The notes under the pieces are model-generated. The model was not told where the DNA came from. It saw only the letters and a list, made by a program, of their open reading frames with translations, and searched no databases. From Acutalibacter sp. 1XD8-33 (GTDB lineage Bacteria > Bacillota > Clostridia > Oscillospirales > Acutalibacteraceae): a stretch of 64,000 bases of DNA. The stretch's first letter is position 1; each line of letters starts with the position of its first letter. Shown one piece after another: positions 204 to 57,800 of this stretch. The position numbers and the translations under genes were made by a program. The stretch spans positions 186,001 to 250,000 of the forward strand of contig NZ_RAZF01000001.1 in NCBI RefSeq assembly GCF_003612555.1. The letters are read 5' to 3'.

Positions 204-647
204 TTGAGGCTTTCAACAAAGTACTTTGGCGAAATTGAATATAGCGAAAGCGATATATTGACTTTTCCTCGGGGATTGTTTGCCTTTGAGGAGGAGAAGG
301 AATTTCTGTTGCTGCCTTTTTCAGGAAGTGACGGAACCCTGCTCTGCCTGCAAAGCCTGGTGACCCCGCAGCTGGCGTTTGTAGTCATGAATCCTTTTGC
401 ACTGGATGCCAGTTATGCGCCGGTGCTTCAGCCGGAAGAGCTGGCCGAACTGGGTGTGGAGCATAGTACAGAGCTGTGCTATTATGTGCTGTGCGTGGTG
501 CAGAATCCGGTTTCCAACAGCACAGTGAATATGAAGTGCCCGGTCGCCATCAATGACGATACCCGCCAATGCATCCAGGTGATTTTGGAGAACGATGACT
601 ATGGAATGCGGCATTTGCTGGCGGATTTCCAGGAGAAGGAGGGATAA
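204..647 (+). CDS. fliW: Flagellar assembly factor FliW
   Basis: FliW binds cytoplasmic flagellin and, when flagellin has been exported, binds and inhibits CsrA, so flagellin translation is tied to export. The 147-residue product has the family length and start (residues 1-20 include TKYFGEIEY followed by the FPRGLFAFE segment) and a VNMKCPVAIN segment in the second half. The start is TTG at 204, preceded by AGGAGG at 191-196; no better start fits. csrA begins 5 bp after the stop, the standard fliW-csrA arrangement. The rare start codon may keep synthesis low, which is inference. Confidence 0.95.
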   Translation: MRLSTKYFGEIEYSESDILTFPRGLFAFEEEKEFLLLPFSGSDGTLLCLQSLVTPQLAFVVMNPFALDASYAPVLQPEELAELGVEHSTELCYYVLCVVQNPVSNSTVNMKCPVAINDDTRQCIQVILENDDYGMRHLLADFQEKEG

Positions 648-652
648 GCGCG

Positions 653-904
653 ATGTTGATCCTTCGCCGCAAAGCAGGGGAATCCTTTCTCATTGGCGAT
701 GACATTACCGTAAAGATTATTGCGACCAAGGACAAAGAGGTGCAGATTGCGATTGATGCGCCGAAGGAGGTTCTGGTGATGCGGACGGAATTGGTTTCTG
801 CCATGGACGCCAACCGGGACGCCGCCCAGGAGCAGAGTCTGCCGCAAGATTTGCTGGCCGCGTTTCCCTCTATGCTTTCAGGGGAACATCCGGAAAAGCA
901 CTAG
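653..904 (+). CDS. csrA: Carbon storage regulator CsrA
   Basis: CsrA is a small dimeric RNA-binding protein that represses translation by covering GGA motifs at ribosome binding sites; in Firmicutes the main target is flagellin mRNA and FliW is the antagonist. The 83-residue product opens with the diagnostic MLILRRKAGESF and continues with IAIDAPKEVLVMRTEL, which holds the RNA-binding arginine of the family. The C-terminal tail of about 25 residues is longer than the minimal fold, as is usual in FliW-containing bacteria. It follows fliW by 5 bp and is followed by a strong terminator at 1011-1053. The flagellin gene itself is not in the window. Confidence 0.96.
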   Translation: MLILRRKAGESFLIGDDITVKIIATKDKEVQIAIDAPKEVLVMRTELVSAMDANRDAAQEQSLPQDLLAAFPSMLSGEHPEKH

Positions 905-1010: not shown

Positions 1011-1053
1011 CGCGGAGCAATGCTGGAAAACAGCTGGAGCTCCGCGTTTTTTT
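1011..1053 (+). terminator. Rho-independent terminator, probably bidirectional
   Basis: An 8-bp perfect GC-rich stem (CGCGGAGC at 1011-1018 with GCTCCGCG at 1039-1046) is followed by seven T residues at 1047-1053. It sits between csrA (+) and the convergent ComFB-like gene (-). On the minus strand the stem is followed by CTTTTATTTTA, so it can probably serve both transcripts. The T-tract overlaps the stop codon of the minus-strand gene. Confidence 0.85.
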
Positions 1054-1795
1054 AGTTGTCTTTGCGGGGGGCGCCCAAACGGATGCCGCCATCTTCCCCG
1101 AGAGAATGGCGGGGATGTTCGGCAACCTTCTGACAGGCCCACATGAGCTGGGCGGTGACGGCGGGGCTGTAGCGGCCCTCATAGATCGAGAGCATCGGGA
1201 CGCCTTCATGCTCAGGGACAACGATATATTTTGCCGGCAGGCTGGTGAGAGTGAGGGCGATAACGTCTGTGCGGCAGCGGGAGCAGCGGCACATCTGGAA
1301 GCGTTCCATATATTTATCGACCTTATCCTCCACCAGAGCCTGCATCACGTTGATATATGTGACGTTTTCAATGGATTCCTCTCTTTGCTCCGGCAGGGGG
1401 TCTGGCACAGGGGTCGGAGCAGTCTCTGGCTGAGGAGCGGACTCTGGGGCCGGGACTTGCTCCGGTTGGGGAGAAGGCTCCAGATTGGCGAAAGGCGGGG
1501 CTTGCTGGAATTCCGGTTCGGGCTCCGGCTCCGGTTCAAAAACGCTCTGGGAAATAGGCTCAGGCTCTGGCTCCTGTTGAGGCTCGTCGGCCAGTTCCGC
1601 CAGAAGGTCCTCTTCCAGGGCGCTGCGGATGGTTTCCGCAACCTCTTCTGTGTTGTCGGGAACGGAAGGCGGAGGGGCGGAGGGGCTGGCGTGTCTGGTG
1701 GGGGTAGCTGTGGTTTCGCCGGGCTCAGTGAGCAGGTTCAGCACATGGGCCGTTTTGTTGGACTTGGATGACTTCGCTGATTTGGAATTTGCCAT
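1052..1795 (-). CDS. ComFB-domain protein with acidic Pro/Glu-rich linker
   Basis: This 247-residue protein has three parts. Residues 1-20 are basic and Ser/Lys-rich; residues about 25-140 are a low-complexity linker of Pro and Glu; residues about 145-225 resemble the ComFB (late competence) fold, with the start INVMQALVEDKVD, a cysteine cluster C169-x-C171-xx-C174 followed by D177, and the ALTLTSLPAKYIV segment. ComFB proteins are small, often cysteine-rich, and cyanobacterial members have been reported as cyclic dinucleotide receptors. The gene starts 6 bp after the ParA stop, so the two form an operon. A basic N-terminus is a feature of many partners that stimulate ParA ATPases; extending that to this protein is inference. 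The family call is moderately secure, the function unknown. Confidence 0.7.
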   Translation of the reverse strand: MANSKSAKSSKSNKTAHVLNLLTEPGETTATPTRHASPSAPPPSVPDNTEEVAETIRSALEEDLLAELADEPQQEPEPEPISQSVFEPEPEPEPEFQQAPPFANLEPSPQPEQVPAPESAPQPETAPTPVPDPLPEQREESIENVTYINVMQALVEDKVDKYMERFQMCRCSRCRTDVIALTLTSLPAKYIVVPEHEGVPMLSIYEGRYSPAVTAQLMWACQKVAEHPRHSLGEDGGIRLGAPRKDN

Positions 1796-1801
1796 AGTTC
1801 A

Positions 1802-2560
1802 TTACCTCTTTTCTATCAATTCATCCAACAGTGCCTGGAAATCTTGGGCGGGGTTGGAGCTGGGAGCATAGGAAAGCACGCTTTCCCCATGGGCGGGGGC
1901 CTCTGCCACTACCACGCTGGTGCGTATTTTGGTATCCAGCACACAAGTGTCCAGCTTTCGGGCAATTTCGCTGGAGAGCTCCAGGACCTCCCGGTTCAGG
2001 GTCAGACGGTTGTTAAACTTGTTCAGCAGGATTCCCAGAACCCGCAGGTCTGGATTATAATACTTGCGTACGGTATTGATGGTGTCCCGAATCTGAGAGA
2101 TGCCCAGCAGGCTGAGGATTTCCGGCGCCATGGGAATAATCAGCGCCCCGGAGGCTACATAAGCGTTGATGGTGAGCACGTTCAGGGCGGGGGGCGTGTC
2201 GATGATGATATAGTCGTAGTCCCGCTCGACCTTGCTTAGCTCGTTTTTCAACAGGTATTCCCGACCGGGAGTATTGAATTCCAGCTCGGCGGTGGAAAGC
2301 AGGATGTTTGAGGGAAGCATGTCTCCCAGATCAGTGGAGACGATTACGTCCTCAATGGCAGCGGAGCCTTTCATCACCTCGTAGACAGTCTCGCTGTTCT
2401 CAATATCCAGCCCGGCAGAAAAGCCCAGGCTGCCCTGAGGATCCAGGTCAACACCCAGCACGCGGTATCCCCGCATATGCAGGGCGTTGATGAGGGAAAG
2501 GGAAGTGGTTGTTTTGCCTACGCCGCCTTTTTGGTTGGTAACAGCAATAATTTTTTCCAT
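1802..2560 (-). CDS. ParA/Soj-family ATPase
   Basis: A 252-residue P-loop ATPase of the ParA/MinD class. It opens MEKIIAVTNQKGGVGKTTTS, which contains the deviant Walker A with signature lysine; DLDPQGS follows as Walker A', and DYDYIIIDTPP is Walker B. The TKIRTSVVVAEAPAHGESV stretch near the C-terminus is typical of Soj-like ParA, not of the MinD-like FlhG. ParA proteins position chromosomes, plasmids or protein assemblies through ATP-dependent nucleoid or membrane binding. The ATG at 2560 is chosen because GGAGAGG lies about 10 bases upstream; a TTG at 2584 would lie before that site. No parB is adjacent. Its partner is probably the ComFB-domain protein encoded 6 bp downstream. Confidence 0.9.
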   Translation of the reverse strand: MEKIIAVTNQKGGVGKTTTSLSLINALHMRGYRVLGVDLDPQGSLGFSAGLDIENSETVYEVMKGSAAIEDVIVSTDLGDMLPSNILLSTAELEFNTPGREYLLKNELSKVERDYDYIIIDTPPALNVLTINAYVASGALIIPMAPEILSLLGISQIRDTINTVRKYYNPDLRVLGILLNKFNNRLTLNREVLELSSEIARKLDTCVLDTKIRTSVVVAEAPAHGESVLSYAPSSNPAQDFQALLDELIEKR

Positions 2561-2728: not shown

Positions 2729-2761
2729 TAGATATGTTATCACAAAAAAGGAGTGAATGCA

Positions 2762-5317
2762 ATGGCTTCTGTATCAAGTTTGATGAAAAACAACAGTACC
2801 TCCAGCAGTTTGTACGGCAACAAGAATATTATTAGCGGCCTTGCAAGCGGTATGGACACGGAGTCCATGATTGAAAACAGCATTTCGGGATATAAAACGA
2901 AGATTACCTCACTGCAGCAGAGGATGACCAAGCTGCAGTGGAAGCAGGATGCATACCGGGGCCTGATTGGCTCTATGAACTCCATTTTGAACAAGTACCT
3001 TTCCTATACATCCAATACGAATCTTCTCAGCACCACCTTCTTTAAGAAGGCGGTGAGCACCATCGCCAATGGGGAAAATGCTGCCAAGGTGAATGTGACC
3101 GGCAAGAGCACCAGCAGCGTGGCGATTAACGGCATCAAGCAGATGGCCAGCGCCGCCCAGTATAATATCGACGCGAAGCGGCTGGCTGTGAAGGCCTCTG
3201 CCAATGAGAAGATCGATTGGAGCGCCGAGTCAGTAGAAGTAAGTAATGTGAGCGGTTCTATCAGTCTGGCCCACGGCAACGGCAACAATACCAAGATGAT
3301 CACGCTGAACTTCGGGGCGGACGAGATCTTTACCGACGATCCGGATACACCGGTGCTGGATGCGGACGGGAACCCGGAGAAAAACGACGATGGCACAGAT
3401 AAAGTCATCAAGGGAAAGACTGCCAAAGAGAAGTTTGTGGACGCAATCAACAGCAAGCTGGCGGAAAAGACCATCACCACCAACGGCGGCACCAAGAATG
3501 CCTCCGAATTGATCCAGGCCTCCCTGGATGAGAATGGCAATATCCAGTTCACCGAGAAGAAGGGCAACGCCCTGGAACTCTCCTCTGTGAGCGGCGACAT
3601 GGCCAAGGTGTTCACCAAAAACGGCAATACCATGGAGCAGAACAAGGTTGGCTCCACAGACATGGCTCTGTCCGGCAAGCAAATGGTAGTCACCAAGCTG
3701 CTGGGAGAGACTCTGACTGTGAACCTGGACGGAAACTCCAAGACCTTCAACCTGGGCGACGTTATTATGCGCGCGGTCAGTGCGGATCCGGATCGACCCA
3801 CCGGCGATCCCATGAATATCACTACCGAGAAATTTGCCGAAGAGCTGAACAAGCAGCTGAAAAAGGAATTCGGAGACGGTGTAAGCGTGACTGAGGACGG
3901 CAACGGCGGCCTCCAGTTTGAGATCAGCGACAAGCATAGCTCCTTAACGGTGAACACCACCACCGCGGCAGGAAACAAGGCCCTGGGCCTGGGCGAGGGC
4001 GGCTACAGCAACACCATGAGCACCAGCTGGACTCTGGAGAAGGTCCTGGGAGACAAGGCGGATAAGCTGTTCAACCTGAAAGACGATGAGGGGAACCCCA
4101 CGGGCAATGGCGTTCTGACCATTAACGGCACCGATATCATCGTGAATCGGAACGATACAGTGCAGGATGTGCTGGATAAGATCACCAATTCTGCCGCCGG
4201 AGTAACCGCAAAGTATTCTGCCTTTACGGGCGAGTTCTCCTTCACCAGCAAGGAGACCGGCGTGGCGAAGCAGATTACCATGGGCGCGGAAGGACACGCG
4301 GACGAGACCGGAGCCATGCAGGCCGCCACGGAGGACAATGATATCGCTATGGCATTGTTTGGAGACGTGTCTAAGGCGGCTACAGATGACGACACGGCCA
4401 CAGCGCGGTACTCTGCGGGCCAGGACGCCATTCTGAACGTCACCGTGAACGGGAAGCGCATGGAGATCCAGCGGTCCAGCAACACCGTAGACCTGGACGG
4501 CTACAACGTTACCCTTAAGGGCACCTTCGGCTATGACGAGGACGGCAACGCCATAAAGGATACCGAGGCCATCACCTTCACCACGAAAACTGATTCAGAT
4601 AAGATTGTGGACGCGGTTAAGGGATTTGTGAACGATTACAACGCGCTGGTAAAGGCGTTGCACAGCGCCTTCCGGACGGAGCCTCTGAAGAACAGCAAAA
4701 AGGAAGAGTACCAGCCTTTGACCGATGAAGATAAGAACACCATGAGCGAGAGCGCCATCACCGCCTATGAGAACAAGGCAAAGACGGGGCTGCTCTTTGG
4801 GGACAGTGACTTGGCCAGCCTGTATTCCAAACTTACCAACGCGGTACAGGGCTCTGGCGGAATGGGAGCTGCTTTGCGGTCTATTGGCATTAAAGTGGGG
4901 TATGAGAAGGAAGGCGGTCTGACCACAATCGATTTGGACGAGGACGCTTTGCGCAGTGCCCTGGAGACGGATCCCGACAAGGTAACCAATGCCTTTACCC
5001 AGACGACGTCCAGCGGGGCCTCTGTAAACGGCATGATGGTTAATGTGCGCAGCGTGTTGGAGCAGTATGGTAAGACTTCCATCGGCGACCCGGGTATTCT
5101 CGTGAAGAAAGCCGGCACAACTCTTTCCTCGTATTCTCTGAACAACAACGAGTTGAATGACCAGATCGACTCTCTTAACGAGCAGATTGAAAAGTGGCAG
5201 GACAAGATGAGCAGTAAGATCGACTATTATACAAATCAGTTTACACAGCTGGAATTGCTCATCAATCAGATGAACTCTCAGAGCTCCATGCTGGCTGGCC
5301 TGTCCGGCGGGTACTAA
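2762..5317 (+). CDS. fliD: Flagellar filament capping protein FliD
   Basis: FliD forms the pentameric filament cap that promotes flagellin polymerisation after export. The N-terminal 100 residues contain the FliD_N hallmarks (GLASGMDTESMIENSISGY and a long heptad-rich helix). The C-terminal 250 residues fit FliD_C, ending in a coiled coil (NDQIDSLNEQIEKWQDKM) and QMNSQSSMLAGLSGGY. At 851 residues it is long for the family; the extra length is in the exposed, Asp/Thr/Gly-rich middle. The ATG at 2762 has AGGAG about 9 bases upstream; a GTG at 2753 overlaps that site. It is followed by fliS. Confidence 0.95.
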   Translation: MASVSSLMKNNSTSSSLYGNKNIISGLASGMDTESMIENSISGYKTKITSLQQRMTKLQWKQDAYRGLIGSMNSILNKYLSYTSNTNLLSTTFFKKAVSTIANGENAAKVNVTGKSTSSVAINGIKQMASAAQYNIDAKRLAVKASANEKIDWSAESVEVSNVSGSISLAHGNGNNTKMITLNFGADEIFTDDPDTPVLDADGNPEKNDDGTDKVIKGKTAKEKFVDAINSKLAEKTITTNGGTKNASELIQASLDENGNIQFTEKKGNALELSSVSGDMAKVFTKNGNTMEQNKVGSTDMALSGKQMVVTKLLGETLTVNLDGNSKTFNLGDVIMRAVSADPDRPTGDPMNITTEKFAEELNKQLKKEFGDGVSVTEDGNGGLQFEISDKHSSLTVNTTTAAGNKALGLGEGGYSNTMSTSWTLEKVLGDKADKLFNLKDDEGNPTGNGVLTINGTDIIVNRNDTVQDVLDKITNSAAGVTAKYSAFTGEFSFTSKETGVAKQITMGAEGHADETGAMQAATEDNDIAMALFGDVSKAATDDDTATARYSAGQDAILNVTVNGKRMEIQRSSNTVDLDGYNVTLKGTFGYDEDGNAIKDTEAITFTTKTDSDKIVDAVKGFVNDYNALVKALHSAFRTEPLKNSKKEEYQPLTDEDKNTMSESAITAYENKAKTGLLFGDSDLASLYSKLTNAVQGSGGMGAALRSIGIKVGYEKEGGLTTIDLDEDALRSALETDPDKVTNAFTQTTSSGASVNGMMVNVRSVLEQYGKTSIGDPGILVKKAGTTLSSYSLNNNELNDQIDSLNEQIEKWQDKMSSKIDYYTNQFTQLELLINQMNSQSSMLAGLSGGY

Positions 5318-7640: not shown

Positions 7641-8354
7641 ATGCCAACGATTCGCCTGGAGAATGTTTCGAAACTGTTTAAGGGTTCTAAAAAGACCAAT
7701 AAGCGATATGAGACGCTTTCTCGAGTAAACTTGGAGATCGAACAGGGAGATTTTGTCTTTTTTGTAGGCAGCAGAGGTGCGGGCAGCAGTACGTTGCTGA
7801 ACCTTATCTCTGGAGTTTTGCAGCCGGATGAGGGGGCGGTATATCTGGACCAGGTCAATCTGTCCAAATTGAACCGACGGCAGGAGAAAAAGCTGAAATA
7901 TATTTTCGGCCGGGTGCCGCAGGAATCCGGGCTAGTACGCACTGCCACCATCTACGACAATCTTTGTCCTCCGGGCCGCTTCGCGAAAATGGGCGGGGCG
8001 ATTACGGACAAGCCGCTGATCAGCAAGGCGCTGGGGCTGGTAGGAATGCCTGACTGCGAGGACAAGTATCCGGCGGAGCTGTCCTCTTCCGAATGCCGAA
8101 GGGTAGAGCTGGCAAAGGCCATTGTCTATAGTCCGCCCATCCTGATTCTGGATAAGATAACGGACCGGATGGATGACGACAGCATCTGGGATGTGATGCA
8201 TCTTTTGGACGAAATGAACCACAGAGGAACCACCATTCTCATGGCCACCCATGCCAAACAGTTTGTAAATATTATGCGCAGGCGGGTGGTTACCCTGGTG
8301 GATGGGAGAATCGTGGGAGATGTGCAAAAGGGCAGGTTTGGAGACATTGTTTGA
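7641..8354 (+). CDS. FtsE-like ABC ATPase with degenerate catalytic motifs
   Basis: A 237-residue ABC nucleotide-binding domain closest in layout to FtsE. The Walker A region reads GSRGAGSST (43-51), with serine at position 49 where the catalytic lysine is expected. The Q-loop glutamine (Q94) is present. The signature reads LSSSE (147-151) in place of LSGGQ. Walker B is ILILD (167-171) but the next residue is K172, not the catalytic glutamate. The switch histidine H204 (MATHAKQF) is kept. FtsE works with FtsX to control cell-wall hydrolases; no ftsX is adjacent, but the divergent neighbour is an anchored peptidase. I infer weak or no hydrolysis. The frame is intact over its full length. Confidence 0.85.
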   Translation: MPTIRLENVSKLFKGSKKTNKRYETLSRVNLEIEQGDFVFFVGSRGAGSSTLLNLISGVLQPDEGAVYLDQVNLSKLNRRQEKKLKYIFGRVPQESGLVRTATIYDNLCPPGRFAKMGGAITDKPLISKALGLVGMPDCEDKYPAELSSSECRRVELAKAIVYSPPILILDKITDRMDDDSIWDVMHLLDEMNHRGTTILMATHAKQFVNIMRRRVVTLVDGRIVGDVQKGRFGDIV

Positions 8355-10485: not shown

Positions 10486-10658
10486 GTAAGGGTAGAGGCT
10501 TATGGCTGGAAGGGAAGAGGAGAGGCGTTTGACTAAAAGGCGAGCGCATGAAAGCGCCCGCTGAATCTCCCCGGATATAAGGGAAATCCTAATTGTATGC
10601 CTGGGAGAAGCAGGCCTAGGCTGGAAAACCGTAATTGATAAATGAAGAGGTGAGTGCT

Positions 10659-12851
10659 TTGCCGGAGAGCTTGAAAAAACAGGATGCAGGGACTGTATTC
10701 GCGCTGGATATCGGCACCCGAAGCATTATTGGCATGTTGGGCCAGGTGGAAGAGGGCCGCTTTCATGTGGAGGCCATTGAAAAAGAAGAGCACGGCCGCC
10801 GTGCCATGTTGGACGGGCAAATTGTGGAAATTGAACAGGTGGCAGCAGTAGCCCAAGAGGTAATCCACCGGTTGGAGAGCAAAACCGGCACTAAGCTCGG
10901 CCGGGTCTGTGTGGCGGCGGCAGGCCGGGCATTGAAATCGCAAAGCGCCAGCTTTCGGCTGCAATTTGACGACCTCCGCCGGGCCGACGCGGATGTAATC
11001 GGCCAGCTGGAGGCAGGAGCAGTTTCTGAGGCAGAAAAGCGCATTGCGGGAGAGAGCGCTGGTCAGGGCCGGTTTTATATGGTAGGCTATACCGCCCGGC
11101 AGTACGTGGTGGACGGCTATCCCATGATGAACCTGTTGGACCACCGGGGGCGGGTTTTTGAGGCGGATGTGGTGTCCACGTTTCTGCCCAGCGGGGTGGT
11201 AGAGAGCCTGTATGCTGTTACCAATCGTTTGGGGCTGGAGGTGTCCAGTCTGACACTGGAGCCCATTGCCGCCCTGAATGCCGCGATTCCGTCGGATATC
11301 CGTCTGCTGAACCTGGTTCTGGTGGATATCGGCGCGGGAACTTCGGACATTGCGGTGTGCCGGGAGGGCAGCGTGGTGGGATATACCATGGCTACTGTGG
11401 CCGGGGACGAGATTACAGAGCTGCTGATGCGCAGCCTGCTGGTAGACTTTAAAACTGGAGAGCGGCTGAAGATGGGGCTGGGTTCTGTGGAGCCTTTACA
11501 GTATCCAGACATTTTGGGCGTCAAGCATGAGATCAGCAGTGAGAATTTGTATGACATCCTGCTTCCGGCGGCACAGCGGCTGGCGAAGGAGATCGCGGCC
11601 CAGATTATGGAACTGAACGGCGGCGTGCCTTCGGCGGTATTCCTGGCGGGAGGCGGCAGCAAACTGATGGGCCTTACCCAGCTGATTGCCGCTGAGCTGG
11701 AGATGAGCGAGGCCCGGGTGGCCTTGGCTGGAAATCATTTTGGCAGCAGCGCCTGGTCTGACGAATACGAACTGAATGATCCGGAGTACGCCACTCCTTT
11801 GGGGATTGGCGCCTCGGCGGCCTTGGGCATGATCAATGACAGCTATATGGTGACACTGAACGGATTTCCGGCAAAGCTGTTCCGGAACGGAGCGTTAAGC
11901 CTGCGGGACGTGCTGCTGATGAATGGATATCATTATGGGGATATGATGGGCCGTACCGGAGGAAACTTGTCTTTTACGCTGAACGGACAGCGCGAATTTT
12001 TCCGGGGCATGCCGGGCGTAGAGTCCAAGATGTCCATTAACGATCGGGAGGCGGAGTTTTCCACTGTCGTACAGGCGGGGGACCGAATCCAGTTTACACC
12101 GGCCAAGCCTGGAAAAGCCGCCACTCAGACCTTGTTTCAACTGCTGGGCCAAGATTTTTCTGGAACCGTAATGGTAAACGGCCAGCCGGTAGAGGATTTG
12201 GCATATGAAATCCGCCAGGGAGACGCGATTGAGACGGCGGGAGGAAAGATTCCTGCACGGCGCGGGATGGCAAACTCCATGACTAAGCTGGCAAACGTGG
12301 AAAAGCTGGCCGGGAAGGAAAGGGCGGATGCTGCGGAAACAGCTACGAAAAAGCCGGAGGAAACAGTTTCTCGTTCTGAAAAGACCGAGGAAGGGCTGCC
12401 TGTAGCGCAGGGATTGAAGTTGGCGGAAAAAGAGGAAAAAGAGGCGGTGGAGAAACAGCTTGCTGAGACCGTGGAGCTGGCTGCAAGCAAACCAGAAAAC
12501 GCGAAACCGGCCTTGCCGCAAAGAATGGCCATAGAGTCAAAGAAGAACTTCCAGCCGCCTGCGAGAGAAGAAAAGCCTGTTCAAAGAGAAAAGGTTTCCC
12601 AAAAAGAGCTGGAGGCTCCGGAACAGCTCTCCTTTGGAGGGGGGATGCGGGTGATGCTCAATGGCGAACCCATCCAGCTGAAGCCAAAAGCACAAGGCGG
12701 GGATTATTACTTGATGGACCTTTTGGAGCTCTCCGGACTGGATTTCAGCCATTTGGACCGTCCGGTGGATTTGCTGGTAAACGGCGCGGAGGGACAGTTC
12801 AGCCAGATTTTGCGCAGAAATGACCAGGTTACCATCAAGTACCGGGAGTAA
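10659..12851 (+). CDS. Large FtsA-like actin-fold protein
   Basis: A 730-residue protein with an actin/FtsA-type ATPase domain in the first 390 residues: phosphate-1 motif FALDIGTRSI, phosphate-2 LVDIGAGTSDIAV and adenosine motif VFLAGGGSKLMG. About 340 further residues follow: a segment starting MVTLNGFPAKLF, a charged Lys/Glu-rich linker, and a C-terminal segment of about 75 residues (VMLNGEPIQLKP to IKYRE) that looks like a small beta-grasp domain. It is much longer than classical FtsA (about 420), and no ftsZ is nearby, so it is probably a clostridial FtsA paralogue. The start is TTG at 10659 because AGAGGTGAG lies at 10645-10653; an upstream TTG at 10635 lacks such a site. Confidence 0.75.
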   Translation: MPESLKKQDAGTVFALDIGTRSIIGMLGQVEEGRFHVEAIEKEEHGRRAMLDGQIVEIEQVAAVAQEVIHRLESKTGTKLGRVCVAAAGRALKSQSASFRLQFDDLRRADADVIGQLEAGAVSEAEKRIAGESAGQGRFYMVGYTARQYVVDGYPMMNLLDHRGRVFEADVVSTFLPSGVVESLYAVTNRLGLEVSSLTLEPIAALNAAIPSDIRLLNLVLVDIGAGTSDIAVCREGSVVGYTMATVAGDEITELLMRSLLVDFKTGERLKMGLGSVEPLQYPDILGVKHEISSENLYDILLPAAQRLAKEIAAQIMELNGGVPSAVFLAGGGSKLMGLTQLIAAELEMSEARVALAGNHFGSSAWSDEYELNDPEYATPLGIGASAALGMINDSYMVTLNGFPAKLFRNGALSLRDVLLMNGYHYGDMMGRTGGNLSFTLNGQREFFRGMPGVESKMSINDREAEFSTVVQAGDRIQFTPAKPGKAATQTLFQLLGQDFSGTVMVNGQPVEDLAYEIRQGDAIETAGGKIPARRGMANSMTKLANVEKLAGKERADAAETATKKPEETVSRSEKTEEGLPVAQGLKLAEKEEKEAVEKQLAETVELAASKPENAKPALPQRMAIESKKNFQPPAREEKPVQREKVSQKELEAPEQLSFGGGMRVMLNGEPIQLKPKAQGGDYYLMDLLELSGLDFSHLDRPVDLLVNGAEGQFSQILRRNDQVTIKYRE

Positions 12852-33133: not shown

Positions 33134-33204
33134 AGCCGCCCTTTTAAAGGGCTTCAGGCCAGAAAATATAGAACAATTGCATGAAAACGGAAGGAGGAAC
33201 GACG

Positions 33205-35301
33205 ATGAAACGAATTTTAAACAACGGCGTGTCCCTGATAGTTGTAGTAATCGTTCTGTTTCTGATTCTCCCCCTGCCCACCTTCATCCTGGACATATTG
33301 CTGGTAATCAATATTTCCCTGTCCATTGTCATTCTTCTGATTACCATGAACATCAAGGAGACGCTGGAATTTTCCATCTACCCCTCCTTGCTGTTGATTA
33401 CCACATTGTTCCGGTTGGGTTTGAACGTATCCACAACCCGGCAGATCCTTTATCAAGGCTATGCCGGCGACGTGATCAAGGCCTTTGGAGACCTGATTAC
33501 CAGCGGCAATGTGGTGATTGGATTTATCATTTTCTTCATCATTGTCATGGTGCAGTTTATCGTCATCACCAAAGGCGCCGAGCGTGTGGCCGAGGTTGCC
33601 GCCCGGTTCACCCTGGACGCCATGCCCGGCAAACAGATGGCCATTGACGCCGACCTGAACACCGGCCTTATCGATGAAGCTACCGCCCGGGCTCGCCGGG
33701 AAAAAATCCAGCGGGAGGCGGACTTCTATGGCGCCATGGACGGCGCCACCAAGATTGTAAAAGGCGACGCTGTAATGTCCCTGATTATTACAGCTATCAA
33801 CCTGATCGGCGGCATTATCATCGGTATGGTGCAGGGCGGCATGGAGATCAACGAGGTACTGACCCGCTACTCTACCGCCACCATCGGCGACGGCCTGGTG
33901 TCTCAGCTGCCTGCTCTGATGATCTCCACCGCCACAGGCATGATTGTGACCCGGTCGGTGTCTGACGACAGTTTAAATATGGACGTGGTCCGCCAGTTTA
34001 CCGCGCAGCCCAGGGCTATTATGACTGCGGCCGCCGCGTTGGTTTTCCTGGCCATAATGCCGAATACGCCCCACCTGTCGCTGGTGATCGTGGCAGTGGT
34101 GCTCTTCACACTGGGCTTTTTCCTCAACCGGAAGATGCAGGCCCAGCGGGAGATGGAGCTGGCGATGGCGGCCGCCCCGGAGGAAATCGCGCCGGAAGCG
34201 GCCCCCACAGAAGCCGATTATTACAAGGATATCAGCAATGTGTATTCCCTGCTGACTGTGGAGCCTATTGAGATGGAAGTGGGCTATAGCCTGATCCCTC
34301 TGGTCGATGAGGGCAGCGGCGGCAAGCTCATCAACCGCATCGTGATTTTCCGCCGGCAATATGCCCAGGAAATGGGTTTTGTGGTACCGACGGTGCGGAT
34401 GCATGACAGCTCGGTGATCGGGACGAACCAGTATACCATCCGGATCAAAGGCGAGGAGGTCGCCAAAGGGGAGATTTTGGTGGACTACTATCTGGCTCTG
34501 GAGCCCTCCAAGCCCTTGGGTGAAATCGACGGCATTGAGACGGTAGAGCCGGCCTATGGCATCCCCTCCCGGTGGATTCTCCCAGAGAACAAGGAGATGG
34601 CGGAGATTTATGGCTACACGGTCATTGACCCCCTGTCGGTAATCTTGACGCATCTTTCTGAAACCATCAAAAAGCATGCCTATGAGCTGCTTACCCGCAC
34701 AGAAACCATCCAGCTGGTGGAGAACTTGAAGCGGACCTCTCCGGAACTGGTGGAGGAGGCCTGCCCCAGTGTGATTTCATACGCCCTGTTGGAAAAGGTT
34801 CTGCGGAATCTTTTGATGGAGGGGATTCCTGTCCGGGATATGCAAACGATTCTGGAGACCATGGTGGATGCCATGGGCACTACCCGAGACCCGGATCTCA
34901 TTACCGAAAGCGTGCGCAATGCTCTGAGTCGTACCATTACCCGGAGGTTCTGTCAGGACGGGCAGCTGCGCGCCATTACCCTGGACGCGGAAGTGGAGCG
35001 CAGGGTGGTATCCTCCCTTACCAAAAACGAGCATGGCATCTACTTAGCGATGGAACCGGACTTGATCCAGGCTCTGATTACGCAGCTGGCGGAACATATG
35101 CCGAAATTTGCCGAGCTGGGCCAGTCGCCTATTCTGCTTACCAGCCAGGTGGTACGTATTTACCTGAGCCGGCTGCTCTCTCAGTATTTCAACAACCTTT
35201 ACGTGCTCTCCTTCAGCGAAATTGTGGGCACCGTACAGATACAATCTCTAGGAAACATTACGTTGCAGCAGCCCACGGTTAGAAGGGCGGTGGGCTCATG
35301 A
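33205..35301 (+). CDS. flhA: Flagellar export protein FlhA
   Basis: FlhA is the largest gate protein, forming a nonameric ring that docks chaperone-substrate complexes and couples to the ion gradient. The 698-residue protein has about eight membrane helices in the first 330 residues, the FHIPEP region (RFTLDAMPGKQMAIDADLN), and a large cytoplasmic domain. The ATG at 33205 has GGAAGGAGG upstream. The stop overlaps the fliA start by 4 bp (ATGA), so flhF and flhG, which often sit here, are missing. Confidence 0.96.
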   Translation: MKRILNNGVSLIVVVIVLFLILPLPTFILDILLVINISLSIVILLITMNIKETLEFSIYPSLLLITTLFRLGLNVSTTRQILYQGYAGDVIKAFGDLITSGNVVIGFIIFFIIVMVQFIVITKGAERVAEVAARFTLDAMPGKQMAIDADLNTGLIDEATARARREKIQREADFYGAMDGATKIVKGDAVMSLIITAINLIGGIIIGMVQGGMEINEVLTRYSTATIGDGLVSQLPALMISTATGMIVTRSVSDDSLNMDVVRQFTAQPRAIMTAAAALVFLAIMPNTPHLSLVIVAVVLFTLGFFLNRKMQAQREMELAMAAAPEEIAPEAAPTEADYYKDISNVYSLLTVEPIEMEVGYSLIPLVDEGSGGKLINRIVIFRRQYAQEMGFVVPTVRMHDSSVIGTNQYTIRIKGEEVAKGEILVDYYLALEPSKPLGEIDGIETVEPAYGIPSRWILPENKEMAEIYGYTVIDPLSVILTHLSETIKKHAYELLTRTETIQLVENLKRTSPELVEEACPSVISYALLEKVLRNLLMEGIPVRDMQTILETMVDAMGTTRDPDLITESVRNALSRTITRRFCQDGQLRAITLDAEVERRVVSSLTKNEHGIYLAMEPDLIQALITQLAEHMPKFAELGQSPILLTSQVVRIYLSRLLSQYFNNLYVLSFSEIVGTVQIQSLGNITLQQPTVRRAVGS

Positions 35302-36083
35302 GTGCTGCCCCCAAAGAGCGGAATTACGAAGGAATGACCACCAACGAGCTGTTTCAGGAATATCGTCAAAGCAGGGACCAGCAATTAAAATGGGAAATTG
35401 CCATGCGGTATACGGGGCTGATCAAGAGCATTGCCTTGCAGATCAGAGGCGTGTTTTGCAGCTTTACCCAGCTGGACGATATTATCAATGAGGGCCTGAT
35501 TGTGCTGGCAGACGCGGTGGATAAGTTTGATCCGGAAAAAGGGCGCTTTGAAATGTATGTAGCCAAGCGTATCCGGGGGATGATTGTGGACCTGGCCCGG
35601 CAGCAGGATTGGGTTCCCAGAAGCGTGCGCCAGCGCGCGCAACGGATTGAAAAAGCAATGACAGAGCTGTATAATGCCACGGGGAAACTGCCTACAGACG
35701 AGGAAGTCGCCCACTATTTGGGATTTTCCATGGAGGAGTACCAAGAGGCTATGTCCAACGCCTCTTTGCATAATATCCTCTCCCTTGACGAATTGTTCGA
35801 AAGTATTGATCAATGGCCGGCCGGTCCTGAAGGTGAGGATGAAGCCGGGCTTCCGGAACAGGCGCTGATGAATGAAGAACTGACAGAAATTGTGACCCAA
35901 GCCATTGCCTCTATGAAGGAGAACGAGCAGCTTGTGTTATCCCTTTATTATGAGCAGAATTTGAAGATGAAGGATATTGCCACAGTGATGGATATTACGC
36001 CGCCCCGTGTTTCTCAGATCCATGCCAGAGCGGTGCAAAAGCTAAAAATTATTCTGGAGAAATACCTGCACGGCGGGGAGTAA
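35298..36083 (+). CDS. fliA: RNA polymerase sigma-28 factor FliA/SigD
   Basis: A 261-residue sigma factor that reads late flagellar and motility genes. It has sigma regions 2 (DDIINEGLIVLADAVDKFDP, then FEMYVAKRIRGMIVDLARQQ), 3 and 4 (LKMKDIATVMDITPPRVSQI). Length and the WVPRSVRQRAQ segment match FliA/WhiG. It overlaps flhA, so it is made only when the export gate operon is transcribed. The anti-sigma factor flgM is not in the window. Confidence 0.95.
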   Translation: MSAAPKERNYEGMTTNELFQEYRQSRDQQLKWEIAMRYTGLIKSIALQIRGVFCSFTQLDDIINEGLIVLADAVDKFDPEKGRFEMYVAKRIRGMIVDLARQQDWVPRSVRQRAQRIEKAMTELYNATGKLPTDEEVAHYLGFSMEEYQEAMSNASLHNILSLDELFESIDQWPAGPEGEDEAGLPEQALMNEELTEIVTQAIASMKENEQLVLSLYYEQNLKMKDIATVMDITPPRVSQIHARAVQKLKIILEKYLHGGE

Positions 36084-39797: not shown

Positions 39798-41072
39798 ATG
39801 AGAGAAAGGTATATCGTCCGGCAGCCGATTAAGAATACTCAGAATCAGATTGTAGCGTATGAAATTCTGTATTACGGGGAAAACCAGGCATATGGGAACA
39901 GCGACGAAAGCGGAGCCAATGAATTTGCCGTGGCAGATACTGTATATAGTTTTCTCATGCAGAATATGGAGAAGTCCCTGAAAGATACAGTCCATTTTAT
40001 GACTTTTACCACTACACTGCTGATGAAAAAGACCCCCGCGCTTTTTCCCAAGGATAATTTGATTATTCAGATTGATGACAGCGTGGTGATCCATCCTCTT
40101 GCGCTACGATTCGTACAGCAGTATGCCCGGGACGGCTATAAGATTGCCGTGAATGAATTTCAGTTTGCGCCTCGATATCTGTCTCTGATTGACTATATTG
40201 ATTATATCAAGCTGAACTTTAGGACCACCAATGAACGCACCATTACCAATATCATTGACTTGGCCCGGAGCATGAATAAGAAAGTCATCGCCACAGAAAT
40301 TGGCGATGAGGAGCTGTATAAAAGGGCTATCGATGTGGGTGTAGACGGTTTGGAGGGGCCCTATGTGGCAAAGAAGCTGGCGACAAAGGCCCACTCCAGC
40401 GGGTATATGCAGAGTAATTTCTTCCGATTGATGGTGGCGGTTGTCCGGGAAGAGCCAGATATGGAGGAGATCGAGCAGATTATCTCCATGGACGCGACCT
40501 TGAGCTATGGCCTGCTGCGTGTGGCAAATACTGCGTATTTTACCACAAAGCATAAGGTGACTACCATTCGCCAGGCAATCGTCACTTTGGGAATTGCCCA
40601 GTTGAAGCAATGGATCTACCTGCTGAGCACTACCAATGCCAACAATGAAATTGACGAATCTGCCGAGGAATTCCTGAAGATGTCCTTTATGCGTGCCAGC
40701 TTTTGCAGCGAGCTAATGAACTATGTGAAGGACCTGCCGATTACCCGGTCTGAGGCGTACCTGATGGGAATGTTCTCTACCTTGAATTATCTGATTGACG
40801 CCCCCTTAGAAGAGATTCTCTCCACAGTGCCGATTGCGGACGAGATCAAAAATGCCATTTTGAAGCGTGAGGGCCGCTGCGGTGAACTCTTTAATTTGGT
40901 GTTGAGTTATGAGCAGGCGGATTGGAACCAGATTACCGTTCAGGCGCAATCTTTGGGTGTACCGGCTTATACATTGACGAATATCTACTTTAATTGCACC
41001 GAGTCAGTGAATGAAACATGGAAACAGATTTGCTCCCCAGCGGAGGTATCTGTGGAAAAGGCGGAAAGCTGA
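39798..41072 (+). CDS. Degenerate EAL plus HDOD signalling protein
   Basis: A 424-residue protein of the YuxH/CdgJ class: an EAL-like N-terminal half (about 1-200) and an HDOD domain (about 205-400). The EAL signature is replaced by YEILYYG and the metal-binding residues are not evident, so c-di-GMP hydrolysis is unlikely. HDOD domains are non-catalytic relatives of HD phosphohydrolases found in signal networks; homologues affect motility. It ends the flagellar cluster and is followed by a strong terminator. Confidence 0.88.
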   Translation: MRERYIVRQPIKNTQNQIVAYEILYYGENQAYGNSDESGANEFAVADTVYSFLMQNMEKSLKDTVHFMTFTTTLLMKKTPALFPKDNLIIQIDDSVVIHPLALRFVQQYARDGYKIAVNEFQFAPRYLSLIDYIDYIKLNFRTTNERTITNIIDLARSMNKKVIATEIGDEELYKRAIDVGVDGLEGPYVAKKLATKAHSSGYMQSNFFRLMVAVVREEPDMEEIEQIISMDATLSYGLLRVANTAYFTTKHKVTTIRQAIVTLGIAQLKQWIYLLSTTNANNEIDESAEEFLKMSFMRASFCSELMNYVKDLPITRSEAYLMGMFSTLNYLIDAPLEEILSTVPIADEIKNAILKREGRCGELFNLVLSYEQADWNQITVQAQSLGVPAYTLTNIYFNCTESVNETWKQICSPAEVSVEKAES

Positions 41073-48561: not shown

Positions 48562-49965
48562 CTATTCTTTCGAGGCTTTTTCAGCGGGCGTCGGGATCCC
48601 TTCTTCATAAAAGCGGCAGCCGCACCGGCCGTTCTCCTTGGCTGCGTAGAGGGCGGCGTCAGCCTGGGCGTAGAGACTGTCGGAGAAGCCGCAGCTTGAA
48701 AAAGCGCCGCCAACGCTGAGGGAAACCGGAGGGGCGCCGTCTGTGGGCGCGAGCAGCGTATCGTTGATAGAGCGTATTTTGGCTTCTACCATAGGCTGGT
48801 GTTTGCAGTCAATGTCCGGCAAGATCACAGCGAATTCATCACCGCCGATTCTGGCGGGATAGTCTGTGGAACGGAAGCTCTCTTCCAGAAGCCGGGCCAC
48901 TTTTTTCAATACCAGATCGCCTGTTTCATGGCCATAGCCATCGTTGATCAGTTTGAATTTGTCCACATCAATGATAAGCAGCGCGAGAGCCTGGCTCTTG
49001 ACCTTGAGTACCTGCCGGACATGTTCAAAGGCTCCCCGGTTGATCAGGCCGGTTAAAGAGTCGTGCTCAGCCTGATGGCGCAGGAGGATCTCGTTGGCGG
49101 CGTTGATCTCGTAGATATCGTTATAGGTCAGGGCCAGATATTTGAACTCATAGGCTCCGGTGATCTCCATGCGCTTTTCTTTTTTAATGCAGTTTACATA
49201 GATTTGCAGGGGTTTGACAATTAAAAGGATAATCATGAGGAAGATGGAGATGTTCATCAAAAAGAGAATACTGAAGAGAATGCGCTCCATGGCCATGGAG
49301 CGGGCGAGATCGTCCATGCTGGACTGCTGGCCCTGCTGGGTGGAGGCCATGACGTCGCTGAGAAAGTAGCTGATATTGCTGGTAATCAACTGCTTTTTTG
49401 CCTGATATTCTGAGCCAAACACCTTTTCCCGGGCGGCCTCCAGCTGTTCTTCCGGGGAAAGGCGCTGATGGCCGGGAAAGATCTGGGTATCGGCCACTTC
49501 CTGGGGAAGAGAGGCAGGGTCCATACTCTGAGCCTCGGCCACCAGGCGCATGGAATAGATTTCCTGTTCCATCAGGCGGTTGGAATTTTCCAAGGCTTTT
49601 TCCATGTATTCCAAGGCTTCCGAGCTGGCCTGATCGGTAAGGCTGATCAGGGCGCGCTTCCGGCGGCGGGTTACATGGACCTCCTCAAAATAGTTTTCCA
49701 TATGTGCGGGATCCATGGTAACGGCGAACATCCTGGCCTGGTCGGTAAGGTAGTCGGAGGCCTCAGAGAGCATGGAGGCGTTTTCCTGACACTGTATGTA
49801 CAGATTGGTGGCCGTTACCATAGCCTGATAGTTTTGAGAAGCTCGATACGTGACGGCCAACAGCATAGTATACAGCAGACAAGAAAGGAAAATCATAATG
49901 AAGTTTACAGTACGCACCTTTATGCCTTTTACATGGGCTTTTTTTCTGGCGGGGGTCTTTTCCAT
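48562..49965 (-). CDS. Membrane diguanylate cyclase (GGDEF)
   Basis: A 467-residue protein predicted to make c-di-GMP. It has two membrane helices (about 20-45 and 230-260), between them a large helical extracytoplasmic sensor domain, and a C-terminal GGDEF domain (about 300-455). The catalytic GGDEF begins at residue 374 in ARIGGDEFAVI and the inhibitory RxxD site (R365-D368) is intact, so product inhibition is expected. The ATG at 49965 is preferred because AGGAGG lies 9 bases upstream; the ATG at 49974 is too close to it. A TATAAT with a weak -35 lies about 90 bp upstream. Confidence 0.93.
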   Translation of the reverse strand: MEKTPARKKAHVKGIKVRTVNFIMIFLSCLLYTMLLAVTYRASQNYQAMVTATNLYIQCQENASMLSEASDYLTDQARMFAVTMDPAHMENYFEEVHVTRRRKRALISLTDQASSEALEYMEKALENSNRLMEQEIYSMRLVAEAQSMDPASLPQEVADTQIFPGHQRLSPEEQLEAAREKVFGSEYQAKKQLITSNISYFLSDVMASTQQGQQSSMDDLARSMAMERILFSILFLMNISIFLMIILLIVKPLQIYVNCIKKEKRMEITGAYEFKYLALTYNDIYEINAANEILLRHQAEHDSLTGLINRGAFEHVRQVLKVKSQALALLIIDVDKFKLINDGYGHETGDLVLKKVARLLEESFRSTDYPARIGGDEFAVILPDIDCKHQPMVEAKIRSINDTLLAPTDGAPPVSLSVGGAFSSCGFSDSLYAQADAALYAAKENGRCGCRFYEEGIPTPAEKASKE

Positions 49966-50115
49966 TTGCAGCATCCTCCTAAAGGGGCTGAACTGTTTGA
50001 TTTTTTTCTGTCCTCTTGTTGGAAGCGAAAAGGACTACCCAAATTATAACCGATTCCGGCGGATTTGGATAGCCCTTTTTGCAAAATTTTCTAGATATCG
50101 TGTAAGAGAATAAAT

Positions 50116-54820: not shown

Positions 54821-57800
54821 ATGCCACTGAATCAAGACATAAAAAAAGTACTGGTGATCGGTTCCGGGCCCATTGTGATCGGACAGGCGGCGGAGTTTGA
54901 CTACGCGGGCACCCAGGCCTGCCGGGCTCTCCGGGAGGACGGCATCGAGATCGTGCTGGTAAACTCCAACCCGGCCACCATCATGACCGACCAGGCCATG
55001 GCCGACCGGATCTACATCGAGCCCCTGACCCTGACCACTGTGAAGCGCATCATCGAGAAGGAGAAGCCGGACAGCATCCTCTCCGGCTTCGGCGGCCAGA
55101 CCGGCCTGACCCTCTCCATGCAGCTGGCCCGGGAGGGTTTTCTGAAAAAGCACAACGTGCGCCTGCTGGGGGCGGGCCCCGAGACCATCGACAAGGCCGA
55201 GGACCGGCAGCTCTTCAAGGACGCCATGGAGCGCATCGGCCAGCCCTGCGTGCCCAGCAAGGTGGTCACCACCGTGGAGGGCGCGGAGGACTTCGCCGGG
55301 GAGATCGGCTACCCGGTGATCATCCGCCCGGCCTTCACTTTGGGCGGCACCGGCGGCGGCATCGTCAACAACCCCCAGGAGCTGCGGGAGATCACCGCCA
55401 ACGGCCTGGCCCTGTCCCCCATCACCCAGGTGCTGGTGGAGAAGAGCATCGCCGGGTGGAAGGAGATCGAATTTGAGGTCATGCGGGACGGGGATGGCAA
55501 CGCCATCACCATCTGCTCCATGGAGAACCTGGACCCTGTGGGCGTGCACACCGGCGACTCCATCGTCATCGCCCCCACGGTCACCCTCTCCGACAAGGAG
55601 TATCAGATGCTGCGCACCGCCGCCCTGGACATTGTGAACGAGCTGGGGGTGGAAGGGGGCTGCAACTGCCAGTTCGCCCTGCATCCCACCAGCTTCGAGT
55701 ACGCCGTCATTGAGGTGAACCCCCGGGTGAGCCGGTCCTCCGCCCTGGCCTCCAAGGCCACGGGCTACCCCATTGCCAAGGTAGCCACGAAAATCGCCAT
55801 CGGCTACCGGCTGGACGAGATCAAAAACGCCGTCACCGGGGTCACCTACGCCGCCTTCGAGCCCACCATCGACTATGTGGCGGTGAAGTTCCCCAAGTGG
55901 CCCTTCGATAAATTCGTATATGCCAAGCGGGATCTGGGCACCCAGATGAAGGCCACCGGTGAGGTGATGAGCATTGCCGACACCTTTGAGATGGCCCTGA
56001 TGAAGGCCGTGCGGGGGGCGGAGATCGGCCTGGACACCCTGAACCTGCCCAAGTTCGCCGGGGAGAGCGAGGAGACCCTCCTGCACATCGCGGAGCACGC
56101 CACCGACGAGCGGATCTTCGCCGTGTACGAGCTCTTGAAGCGGGGCCATTCCGTGGACAGCCTCTATGCGCTGACCATGATCGACCGGTGGTTTCTCTCG
56201 AAGCTCCTGGTGCTGCTGGACTACGAGCGGGAGCTGGCAAAAGGCGTCCTGACCCAGGAGCTCTACACCGAGGGCAAGCGGCTGGGCTATCCGGACCGGA
56301 TCATCGCCCGGCTCTCCGGCTGCGAGGTGAAATTCCCCCGGAAAACCACCTTCAAGATGGTGGACACCTGCGCCGGGGAGTTCGCCGCCCATACCCCCTA
56401 CTTCTACGCCACCTATGACACCGAGGAGAGCGGCGGGGAGGACGAGGCCCTGGAGTTCATCAAGGACAAGGGGGATAAGAAAACCATCATTGTGCTGGGC
56501 TCCGGGCCCATCCGCATCGGTCAAGGCATCGAGTTCGACTATGCCAGCGTCCACTGCGTCATGTCTTTGCAGCAGCTGGGCTATCAAGTGGTGATCATCA
56601 ACAACAACCCGGAGACCGTGTCCACAGACTTCGACACCGGCGACCGGCTCTACTTCGAGCCCCTCTCCCCGGAGGACGTGATGGATATTATCGCCATCGA
56701 GAAGCCCATTGGAGTGGTGGTTGCCTTCGGCGGGCAGACGGCCATCAAGCTCACCAAGACCCTGGCGGAGAACAAGATCCCCATCCTGGGCTCCTCGGCG
56801 GACACCATCGACATGGCGGAGGACCGGGAGCGCTTCGACGAGCTTCTGGAGCGGGCGGGCATCAAGCGGCCCAAGGGCTCCACGGTGATGACGGCGGCGG
56901 AGGCCCTGGAGGCGGCGGAAAAGCTGGGATATCCCGTGCTCATGCGGCCTTCTTATGTGCTGGGCGGCCAGAACATGATCATCGCCACCTGCGCGGAGGA
57001 CATTGAGGAGTATATGGAGATCATCCTCTCCACCAAGCAGGACAACCCGGTGCTCATCGACAAATACCTCTCCGGCATGGAGATCGAGGTGGACGCCATC
57101 TGCGACGGGGAGGACATCCTGATCCCCGGCATCATGGAGCATGTGGAGCGCACGGGCATCCACTCCGGGGACAGCATCGCCGTGTACCCCGCCTCCGACA
57201 TTGACGACGGTATGAGCCAGAAGATCGTCTCCACCACGGAGACCCTCTGCCGGGAGCTCCACGGCATCGGGCTCATCAACCTCCAATATATTATCATGGA
57301 CCGGGAGATCTACGTGATCGAGGTGAACCCCCGGGCCAGCCGCACCGTGCCCTATATCAGCAAGGTCACCGGCGTGCCTATGTGCGATCTGGCCACCAAG
57401 TGCAGCCTGGGCTACAAGCTCCGAGACCTGGGCTATGGCACCGGGCTCTACAAACCCTCCCCCTATGTGGCGGTGAAGGTGCCGGTGTTCTCCTTTGAGA
57501 AGCTGGCGGACGTGGACACCCACCTGGGCCCGGAGATGAAGTCCACCGGCGAGGTGCTGGGCATCGGCAACTGCCTGGAGGAGGCCCTTTACAAGGGGCT
57601 CATCGCCAGCGGCCACCAGATGAAGAAGGGCGGCGGGGTATTCATCACCGTGCGGGACCAGGACAAGCCGGAGATCGCGGAGATCGCCAAGAAATTCGAG
57701 CGCCTGGGCTTTAAGCTCTTCGCCACCGGCGGCACGGCCCTGCTGCTGTTCAAAGCCGGGCTGAACGTGACGGTGGTGGACAAGATCCACGAGAACTCCG

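Follow-up and report, generated by a model that had tools for sequence, protein, structure and literature searches.

The locus and its ParA ATPase

This work concerns a pair of genes in a window of 64,000 nucleotides from Acutalibacter sp. 1XD8-33 (contig NZ_RAZF01000001.1, positions 186,001 to 250,000), the window being the whole stretch of DNA that was analysed. The pair encodes a Soj-like ParA ATPase and a partner protein with a C-terminal ComFB domain, and it recurs in the flagellar gene clusters of related genomes. An original prediction had described it as a two-gene operon between csrA and fliD without a parB, and had proposed a positioning system for flagella or receptor arrays that responds to cyclic dinucleotides. 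The two-gene unit between csrA and fliD is borne out by the coordinates (Table 1) and by Pfam, which also backs the identities of FliW, CsrA, FliD and FliS in the window. The ComFB gene lies downstream of parA on the same strand after a gap of six bases, and a terminator-like inverted repeat sits between its end and the convergent end of csrA. The lack of a parB is confirmed for the 64-kb window, in which no ParB_N match is found; the contig has a single such match, below the cut-off and about 150 kb from the pair. The soj-spo0J genes of this genome are on contig C16, where a second ParB-like gene lies just upstream. A sigma-28-like promoter in the gap between parA and fliD was dropped as a candidate after a loose scan allowing three mismatches gave many weak matches.

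Table 1. Positions of the gene pair, its sequence features and other genes in the window (aa, amino acids)
Feature	Position	Strand	Description
parA	1802-2560	-	Soj-like ParA ATPase of 252 aa; leads the pair; Pfam AAA_31, E 4.8e-53
Deviant Walker A, KGGVGKTT	2507-2530	-	ParA residues 11-18; read from the sequence
ParA partner gene	1052-1795	-	Follows parA in the pair; 247 aa, with a long linker between the N-terminal motif and the ComFB domain at the C-terminus
Type I motif, KTAHVLNLL	1730-1756	-	Partner residues 14-22; proposed ParA-contacting helix
Pro/Glu-rich linker	1367-1729	-	Variable in length and sequence; one predicted helix (residues 49-69)
ComFB domain	1106-1366	-	Partner residues 144-230; Pfam and nearest solved folds
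CxCxxC	1274-1291	-	C169, C171, C174; matches three ComFB zinc ligands
Inverted repeat CGCGGAGC/GCTCCGCG	about 1001-1053	none	T-runs on both sides; terminator-like; read by eye
fliW	204-647	+	Flank on the ComFB-gene side; Pfam
csrA	653-904	+	Follows fliW; Pfam
fliD	2753-5317	+	Divergent from parA; Pfam
flhA, directly followed by flagellar sigma factor gene	33181-36083	+	No flhF-flhG in between; Pfam
GGDEF protein (diguanylate cyclase)	48562-49974		Pfam, E 1.7e-35
EAL-HDOD protein	39798-41072	+	After cheV (Pfam); counterpart directly adjoins the pair in several relatives
FtsE-like ABC ATPase	7641-8354	+	Lone gene inside the flagellar cluster
FtsA/actin-like protein	10635-12851	+	738 aa; inside the flagellar cluster
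carB	54821-58903	+	Apparent in-frame fusion with a diaminopimelate epimerase domain; 1360 aa (Pfam)
dapF	61703-62551	+	Second, stand-alone copy after the carB fusion

The protein belongs to the ParA branch, as it combines an AAA_31/CbiA domain with the deviant Walker A sequence KGGVGKT and its signature lysine; the positions that do not vary in an alignment of eight ParAs (A1) include K11, G12, G13, G15, K16, T17 and T18. Several further ParAs are encoded in the same genome, the nearest being the chromosomal Soj with 40% identity. The best matches in the PDB are ParA/Soj-type chains together with two that carry the name cobyrinic acid a,c-diamide synthase, with FleN far lower. Elsewhere in the flagellar cluster, the FtsA/actin-like and FtsE-like genes recur near fliD-fliS in many related loci.

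Linkage of the pair to flagellar genes

Among 60 related genomes, ComFB is present in 20. The genus of the window is represented by 29 genomes including its own, and 16 of these encode a long ComFB protein, in every case with ParA directly upstream (gaps of 6-426 bases; in G024 the ParA is cut off by the contig end) and with flagellar genes alongside. The surroundings are not fixed: csrA lies on the ComFB side in ten of the 16 carriers, the window included; in G001, G002, G006 and G011 fliD lies on the ParA side, with no csrA match in the stretch examined; and in G020 and G028 chemotaxis and rod/export genes take the place of csrA and fliD. FlhA is found in 14 of the 16, the two misses coming from genomes that are 60% and 63% complete, and the remaining 13 genomes of the genus have neither ComFB nor FlhA. 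Outside the genus, the pair occurs in the csrA/fliD arrangement in G048, from another family, and by flgG and fliD in G034. Apart from its pair, G028 also has a short solo ComFB gene (L059) without a ParA.

The same linkage appears when the search is led by ParA and makes no use of ComFB. Named genomes were scanned with alignment A1 as query, and the best 80 of at least 510 confirmed stretches (at least 588 were found) were considered, which is not a census. The subfamily is taken to be the 32 loci that rank highest by E-value (L122-L152 and L156), all of them at 8e-69 or better, with the following locus at 1e-60. A ComFB gene lies directly downstream in 31 of the 80 loci, all 31 inside the subfamily, and a ComFB profile built from 21 partners finds no adjacent ComFB at the other 48. 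Flagellar genes are nearby in 31 of the 32 subfamily loci within the stretch examined, so that only one locus (L147) lacks a flagellar neighbour. The subfamily loci include Oscillospiraceae, Lachnospiraceae, one Butyricicoccaceae strain and two metagenome-assembled genomes (MAGs) of Erysipelotrichaceae, and the settings include fliW-csrA/fliD, cheV-EAL/HDOD/fliD, flgG/cheC and flgB-flgC. The arrangement is therefore not due to chance, as it recurs across several families and at differing positions in the flagellar cluster. The original prediction had named conserved co-occurrence with flagellar loci as a check and a pair found mostly away from motility genes as its refutation; the counts, 16 of 16 in the genus, 31 of 32 in the subfamily and, as described below, six of six class carriers with FlhA, agree strongly with the former and speak against the latter.

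Solo ComFB genes are common. A ComFB match is present in 114 of 393 genomes of the class, nearly all in short frames of about 60-140 amino acids, and no match to the window ParA is found at 30 class ComFB loci with short flanks (L072-L101) or at 17 with longer flanks (L104-L119, L121). These two sets overlap in some genomes, and the other class genomes are covered by the ParA profile search. L005, L020 and L021 do have a ParA and belong to G034, G048 and G041. The partner has no tblastn match (E 1e-5) among 72,556 records of plasmids and 50,697 of phages; this search was made with the partner and not with ParA.

Across the class sample, in which each of the 393 genomes is at least 90% complete, FlhA is present in 155 and FlhF in 138, with both in 137 and FlhF alone in G122. 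The A1 profile finds ParA in six genomes at 365-480 bits, the next best scoring 251. These six carriers (G000, G048, G196, G265, G284 and G404) come from five families, and all have FlhA and none has FlhF. The subfamily ParA is thus found in 6/18 genomes with FlhA and no FlhF, in 0/137 with both and in 0/238 without FlhA. The contrast between the first two groups gives a Fisher p of 1.1e-6, a value that overstates the independent evidence because just two changes on the FlhA tree are enough to account for the pair; for this reason it is not claimed on statistical grounds that the pair replaced FlhF-FlhG. FlhF was called at E limits of 1e-40 in the class sample and 1e-35 in the named genomes, and in larger genomes part of the candidates was scored (six per genome class-wide and up to 53 in named genomes). 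No FlhF is found at E <= 1e-35 in the 32 genomes of the subfamily loci, which are of unstated completeness and in many cases MAGs. In G000 no FlhF scores above the cut-off, and its ParA is not assigned to the FlhF-FlhG system.

The gene order after flhA agrees with this. Where flhA and the sigma factor gene lie on one strand, which is the case in 22 of 37 loci examined, they are adjacent in all 22, with gaps of -4 to 81 bases. In the FlhF-bearing controls G092, G061, G082 and G037, flhF and flhG come after flhA, as located with probes from G037.

The FlhA tree comprises 39 hand-chosen rows with a midpoint root, the genus being represented by the window, G020 and G028; it leaves out G404, L137, L139 and loci without flhA, L053 is partial, and L220 (FlhF-bearing) and others are long-branched. 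In this tree the pair-bearing flagellar systems cluster, with two changes accounting for 22 rows, and the linkage between pair and flagella may consequently trace to one ancestor. The FlhA of G265, Hungatella and Eisenbergiella groups with that of other carriers and not with that of the FlhF-bearing G082 (a long branch), even though G265 and G082 are of the same family (f48), which would fit a transfer of the whole cluster. The clustering could also mean that the pair has simply travelled with a single successful form of flagellar cluster and has no role in motility. This we regard as very improbable, since the pair stays linked while its position among the flagellar genes changes, and since ParA and both conserved islands of the partner, described below, are highly conserved.

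The settings of the pair also bear on a different kind of flagellar function. Instead of position, the pair could set flagellar gene expression or the number of flagella assembled, with ParA as a switch under a cyclic-dinucleotide receptor. In Pseudomonas, the MinD-like ATPase FleN and the c-di-GMP-binding regulator FleQ act in flagellar control, and thus provide a precedent for an ATPase combined with a receptor for cyclic di-GMP (c-di-GMP). The proximity of the pair to fliW-csrA or to the flagellar sigma factor operon at many loci is in line with such a role, and FleN is among the weaker PDB matches of ParA. However, the ParA/Soj-type and cobyrinic acid a,c-diamide synthase chains score far above FleN, and in Pfam the partner has ComFB alone, without a DNA-binding or sigma-54 domain. 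Control of expression or number is for these reasons an unlikely explanation.

The partner protein and its predicted ligand

Conservation of the partner is confined to two islands. In an alignment of 26 partners (A3, the window protein and 25 of the 31 ComFB-adjacent loci; window numbering), mean identity is 0.69 over residues 11-20, falls to 0.15-0.41 per ten residues between residues 21 and 140, and returns in the ComFB domain to 0.66-0.69 over residues 171-190 and 0.63 over residues 221-230. As the original prediction had described, the N-terminus is basic (K5, K8, K11, K14) and the linker rich in Pro and Glu. The first island carries one of two motifs: a type I pattern, [KR]T..[VI][LM].[LV][LIV], is present in 49 of 54 partners (searched over residues 1-70), and a type II pattern, [DF][KR][ED].MY.K[IL]MP, is found in four (L147, L151, L152 and G034). 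The partner of G041, counted among the 54, has neither. Both patterns were devised post hoc, so that these counts are a description; the control is a background of 2,881 open reading frames (ORFs) of at least 100 amino acids from all frames, many of them not genes, in which type I occurs once and type II never. The partners of G284 and G404, which were reached through ParA and not through ComFB, also have the type I motif. The net charge up to and including the motif is +1 to +5 (median +3, 47 partners scored), and in partners with the CxCxxC pattern the motif is separated from the domain by about 35-377 residues (median 159). An AlphaFold model from the 26 sequences (mean pLDDT, the predicted local distance difference test score, 73.7) has a low-confidence helix at residues 14-23 and a better one at 49-69, with low pLDDT in the rest of the linker and a confident domain at about residues 141-230.

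A change in ParA runs parallel to the change of motif. The AEAP stretch of ParA reads AEAQ or SEAQ wherever the partner is of type II (four cases); with type I partners it is a variant with a final P in 48 of 49, and the 49th ParA (G024) is truncated by the contig end. In the ParA tree the type I ParAs form a supported clade separate from Soj (96/87), and the type II ParAs are weakly grouped (69/22), with L153, labelled Soj-like, falling among them. The non-pair rows of this tree are eight of the 48 non-ComFB loci, Soj and five further ParAs of the window's genome; L132 and L134 (X residues) and all genus copies except G000, G001, G010, G020 and G028 are left out, and the long branches L028_own, L030_own and G041 make its root uncertain. 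Because the type I ParAs form a supported clade, the parallel change may be a single event. An N-terminal ParA-binding peptide, as predicted here, is supported by the conserved motif together with this change. It also resembles what is reported for the partners of ParA/MinD ATPases, which act through positively charged, disordered N-termini (PMC10241942).

The C-terminal domain matches Pfam ComFB (PF10719) over residues 149-228 (E 1.3e-13; 51.2 bits against a cut-off of 25), and the family is confirmed in all 26 partners submitted, the window protein and 25 of 31. With 32.5 bits against a cut-off of 120 for the late competence equivalog NF052654, the window partner is, by its sequence, not the ComFB of competence. 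Foldseek gives only two convincing matches in the PDB, B. subtilis ComFB (4wai, E 5.6e-5) and Synechocystis CdgR in complex with c-di-GMP (8hja, E 2.7e-3, probability 1.00), the latter at the level of the overall fold; a sequence profile picks the same two structures (8hja with E 0.0013). Across the 26 partners C169, C171 and C174 are invariant and H230 is nearly so. B. subtilis ComFB is reported as an obligate zinc-bound dimer with the ligands C25, C27, C30 and C88 (PMC4381287). The three cysteines match these ligands and H230 fits as the fourth (Cys or His), which predicts a zinc site in the partner.

The literature on the family points to cyclic dinucleotides. Synechocystis ComFB is reported to bind c-di-AMP with a dissociation constant of 2.6 µM and c-di-GMP with a quoted value of 1.7 µM (PMC12313861), and CdgR is reported to mediate effects of c-di-GMP on cell size and viability in Anabaena (PMC13075795). 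Genes for c-di-GMP proteins lie near the pair in some relatives. Of 18 loci for which the upstream genes on the ParA strand were listed, eight have a PilZ gene one to three ORFs upstream and above the cut-off (L142, L144, L145, L146, L150, L156, L202, L203), with PilZ just below the cut-off in L133 and L135. Six have a Pfam-confirmed GGDEF gene upstream of ParA (L142, L144, L145, L146, L202, L203), separated from ParA in L144 and L145 by 0.7-1 kb with a small ORF. These six loci may represent one event, because they all fall in one ParA clade. In Agathobaculum (L129) a GGDEF-EAL gene lies alongside the pair on the opposite strand. The diguanylate cyclase that the original prediction had pointed to is indeed present in the window, about 46 kb from the pair, and at this distance is weak evidence for a link. 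Taken together, the ComFB/CdgR literature, the CdgR fold match and the PilZ and GGDEF genes of some relatives support a partner that would bind a cyclic dinucleotide; c-di-GMP is favoured over c-di-AMP as the predicted ligand, which does not decide between the two. As a separate observation, the short solo ComFB genes of L117 and L119 adjoin GGDEF genes, another hint of c-di-GMP for the family.

A proposed positioning module

A conserved basic helix, a flexible linker and a dimeric sensor fit the known plan of ParA partners, and the pair is therefore read here as a nucleoid-based flagellar or chemotaxis positioning module with second-messenger input. We consider this reading evenly poised between being right and wrong. 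ParA would bind ATP and the nucleoid in the manner of Soj-type ParAs. The partner, as a dimer of ComFB domains, would reach ParA with its basic N-terminal helix and stimulate the ATPase like other partners of ParA/MinD proteins, while the ComFB domain would read a cyclic dinucleotide, most likely c-di-GMP. The linker would couple this signal to a flagellar or chemotaxis cargo, for which basal bodies, receptor arrays or export parts are candidates; the gradient of ParA on the nucleoid would spread or place it, and the second messenger would switch its placement on or off. Of the original proposal, the flagellar association stands on strong co-occurrence, and the cargo may be flagella, receptor arrays or something else. 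A possible aid to DNA binding is seen in five relatives, L142, L144, L145, L146 and L203, whose ParAs end in a basic RGRP-like tail that is absent from the window ParA. These tails resemble what we take to be the AT-hook consensus and would fit DNA binding.

Several observations weigh against the positioning module or parts of it. Neither GGDEF nor PilZ genes were seen beside the window's own pair. Twelve of the 18 FlhF-less flagellates of the class lack the subfamily ParA, and in those of them examined flhA also runs into the sigma factor gene, so that neither the absence of FlhF nor this junction is peculiar to carriers. L146 has a subfamily ParA with a ParE-toxin-like gene in the place of ComFB. 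The divergent pair of G041 lacks the motif and has no flagellar match within its 20 kb; on these grounds, and with the ParA of G041 on a long branch among Soj-like rows, the pair was left out of the family. In L147 (10001-16466) ParA and a type II partner lie upstream of mreC, mreD and genes for a penicillin-binding protein and a MinD/ParA-family protein, with no flagellar match in the stretch examined. In G284 and G404, both of family f25, ParA and the motif are kept while the partners have no Pfam ComFB match, and the G284 partner has also lost the cysteines. Ligand sensing is thus not essential everywhere. On a separate point, the ParE-toxin-like gene of L146 and a small second ORF (10850-11348) directly follow its PilZ, GGDEF and ParA genes.

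Two of these cases suggest alternatives. The L147 locus would suit a pair that ties the cell cycle or cell shape to motility, with a CdgR-like partner signalling mainly to division or elongation and ParA placing that machinery, and the reported effects of CdgR in Anabaena (PMC13075795) point the same way. On the other hand, flagellar genes are near 31 of the 32 loci, and the 13 genomes of the genus without FlhA (fragmentary carriers aside) are also without ComFB, which makes such a coupling quite unlikely. The decay of the receptor part in G284 and G404 while the motif stays would place the contact between motif and ParA at the core of the system. From this it is a short step to a ComFB domain that only dimerises the partner through its zinc fold and senses no second messenger, as the obligate dimer of B. 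subtilis (PMC4381287) and the KT..V motif kept by the cysteine-free G284 partner would allow. Since the domain is otherwise retained with a conserved core and some relatives have PilZ and GGDEF genes upstream of the pair, we hold a purely dimerising domain to be rather unlikely.

The positioning module proposed here can be set against known systems. With Soj and the ParA of ParABS it shares the fold family, the deviant Walker A motif, the identity to the genome's own Soj and the basic N-terminus of the partner, a feature described for ParA partners in PMC10241942. It differs in that the pair has no adjoining ParB, a ComFB-domain partner, a type I clade of its own and a flagellar locus that is not beside spo0J. 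Like FlhF-FlhG (YlxH/FleN), the pair includes an ATPase of the ParA/MinD superfamily encoded in a flagellar cluster, and it may likewise act on the flagellar pattern; unlike that system, its carriers have no FlhF match (32 named and six class genomes) and its gene position differs. FlhG of G037 adjoins flhF and is 27% identical over 157 residues. ParC-ParP and McdA-McdB also combine a ParA/MinD ATPase, in the absence of ParB, with a dedicated partner encoded beside cargo genes, as far as these are covered in PMC10241942. The pair differs from both in its partner domain, which is ComFB and would have a second-messenger receptor built in. ParP and McdB are not known to have a ComFB domain. The ComFB of B. 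subtilis and the CdgR/ComFB of cyanobacteria share with the partner the domain family, the fold, the three zinc cysteines and the distal histidine. They are described, however, as stand-alone proteins encoded with comFA/comFC or hfq (PMC12313861), whereas in the present partner an N-terminal motif and a linker precede the domain, and the protein is coupled with ParA in flagellar clusters. Each component is thus a member of a known family, and a ParA with a dedicated ComFB-type partner in flagellar clusters is a new combination within the literature searched; among the papers listed in searches of open-licence literature, none describes a ParA-ComFB pair of this kind in its title or the start of its abstract.

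To our knowledge, it is an open question how flagellated bacteria that lack FlhF and FlhG control where, and how many, flagella are built. The lineage with the pair takes in gut-type Clostridia such as Pseudoflavonifractor, Intestinimonas, Agathobaculum and Eisenbergiella. More tentatively, and with more doubt than belief, a second-messenger-gated ParA system may do the work of FlhF-FlhG in one large lineage of Clostridia, with the partner as a c-di-GMP receptor that redraws the pattern of flagella or arrays when the lifestyle changes. If the partner binds c-di-GMP, a ParA-type positioning motor would take a direct input from the level of the second messenger, and the partner would be, within the literature searched, the first receptor for cyclic dinucleotides that also serves as the cargo adaptor of a ParA. 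The ComFB family would thereby gain a testable function outside competence and cell size.

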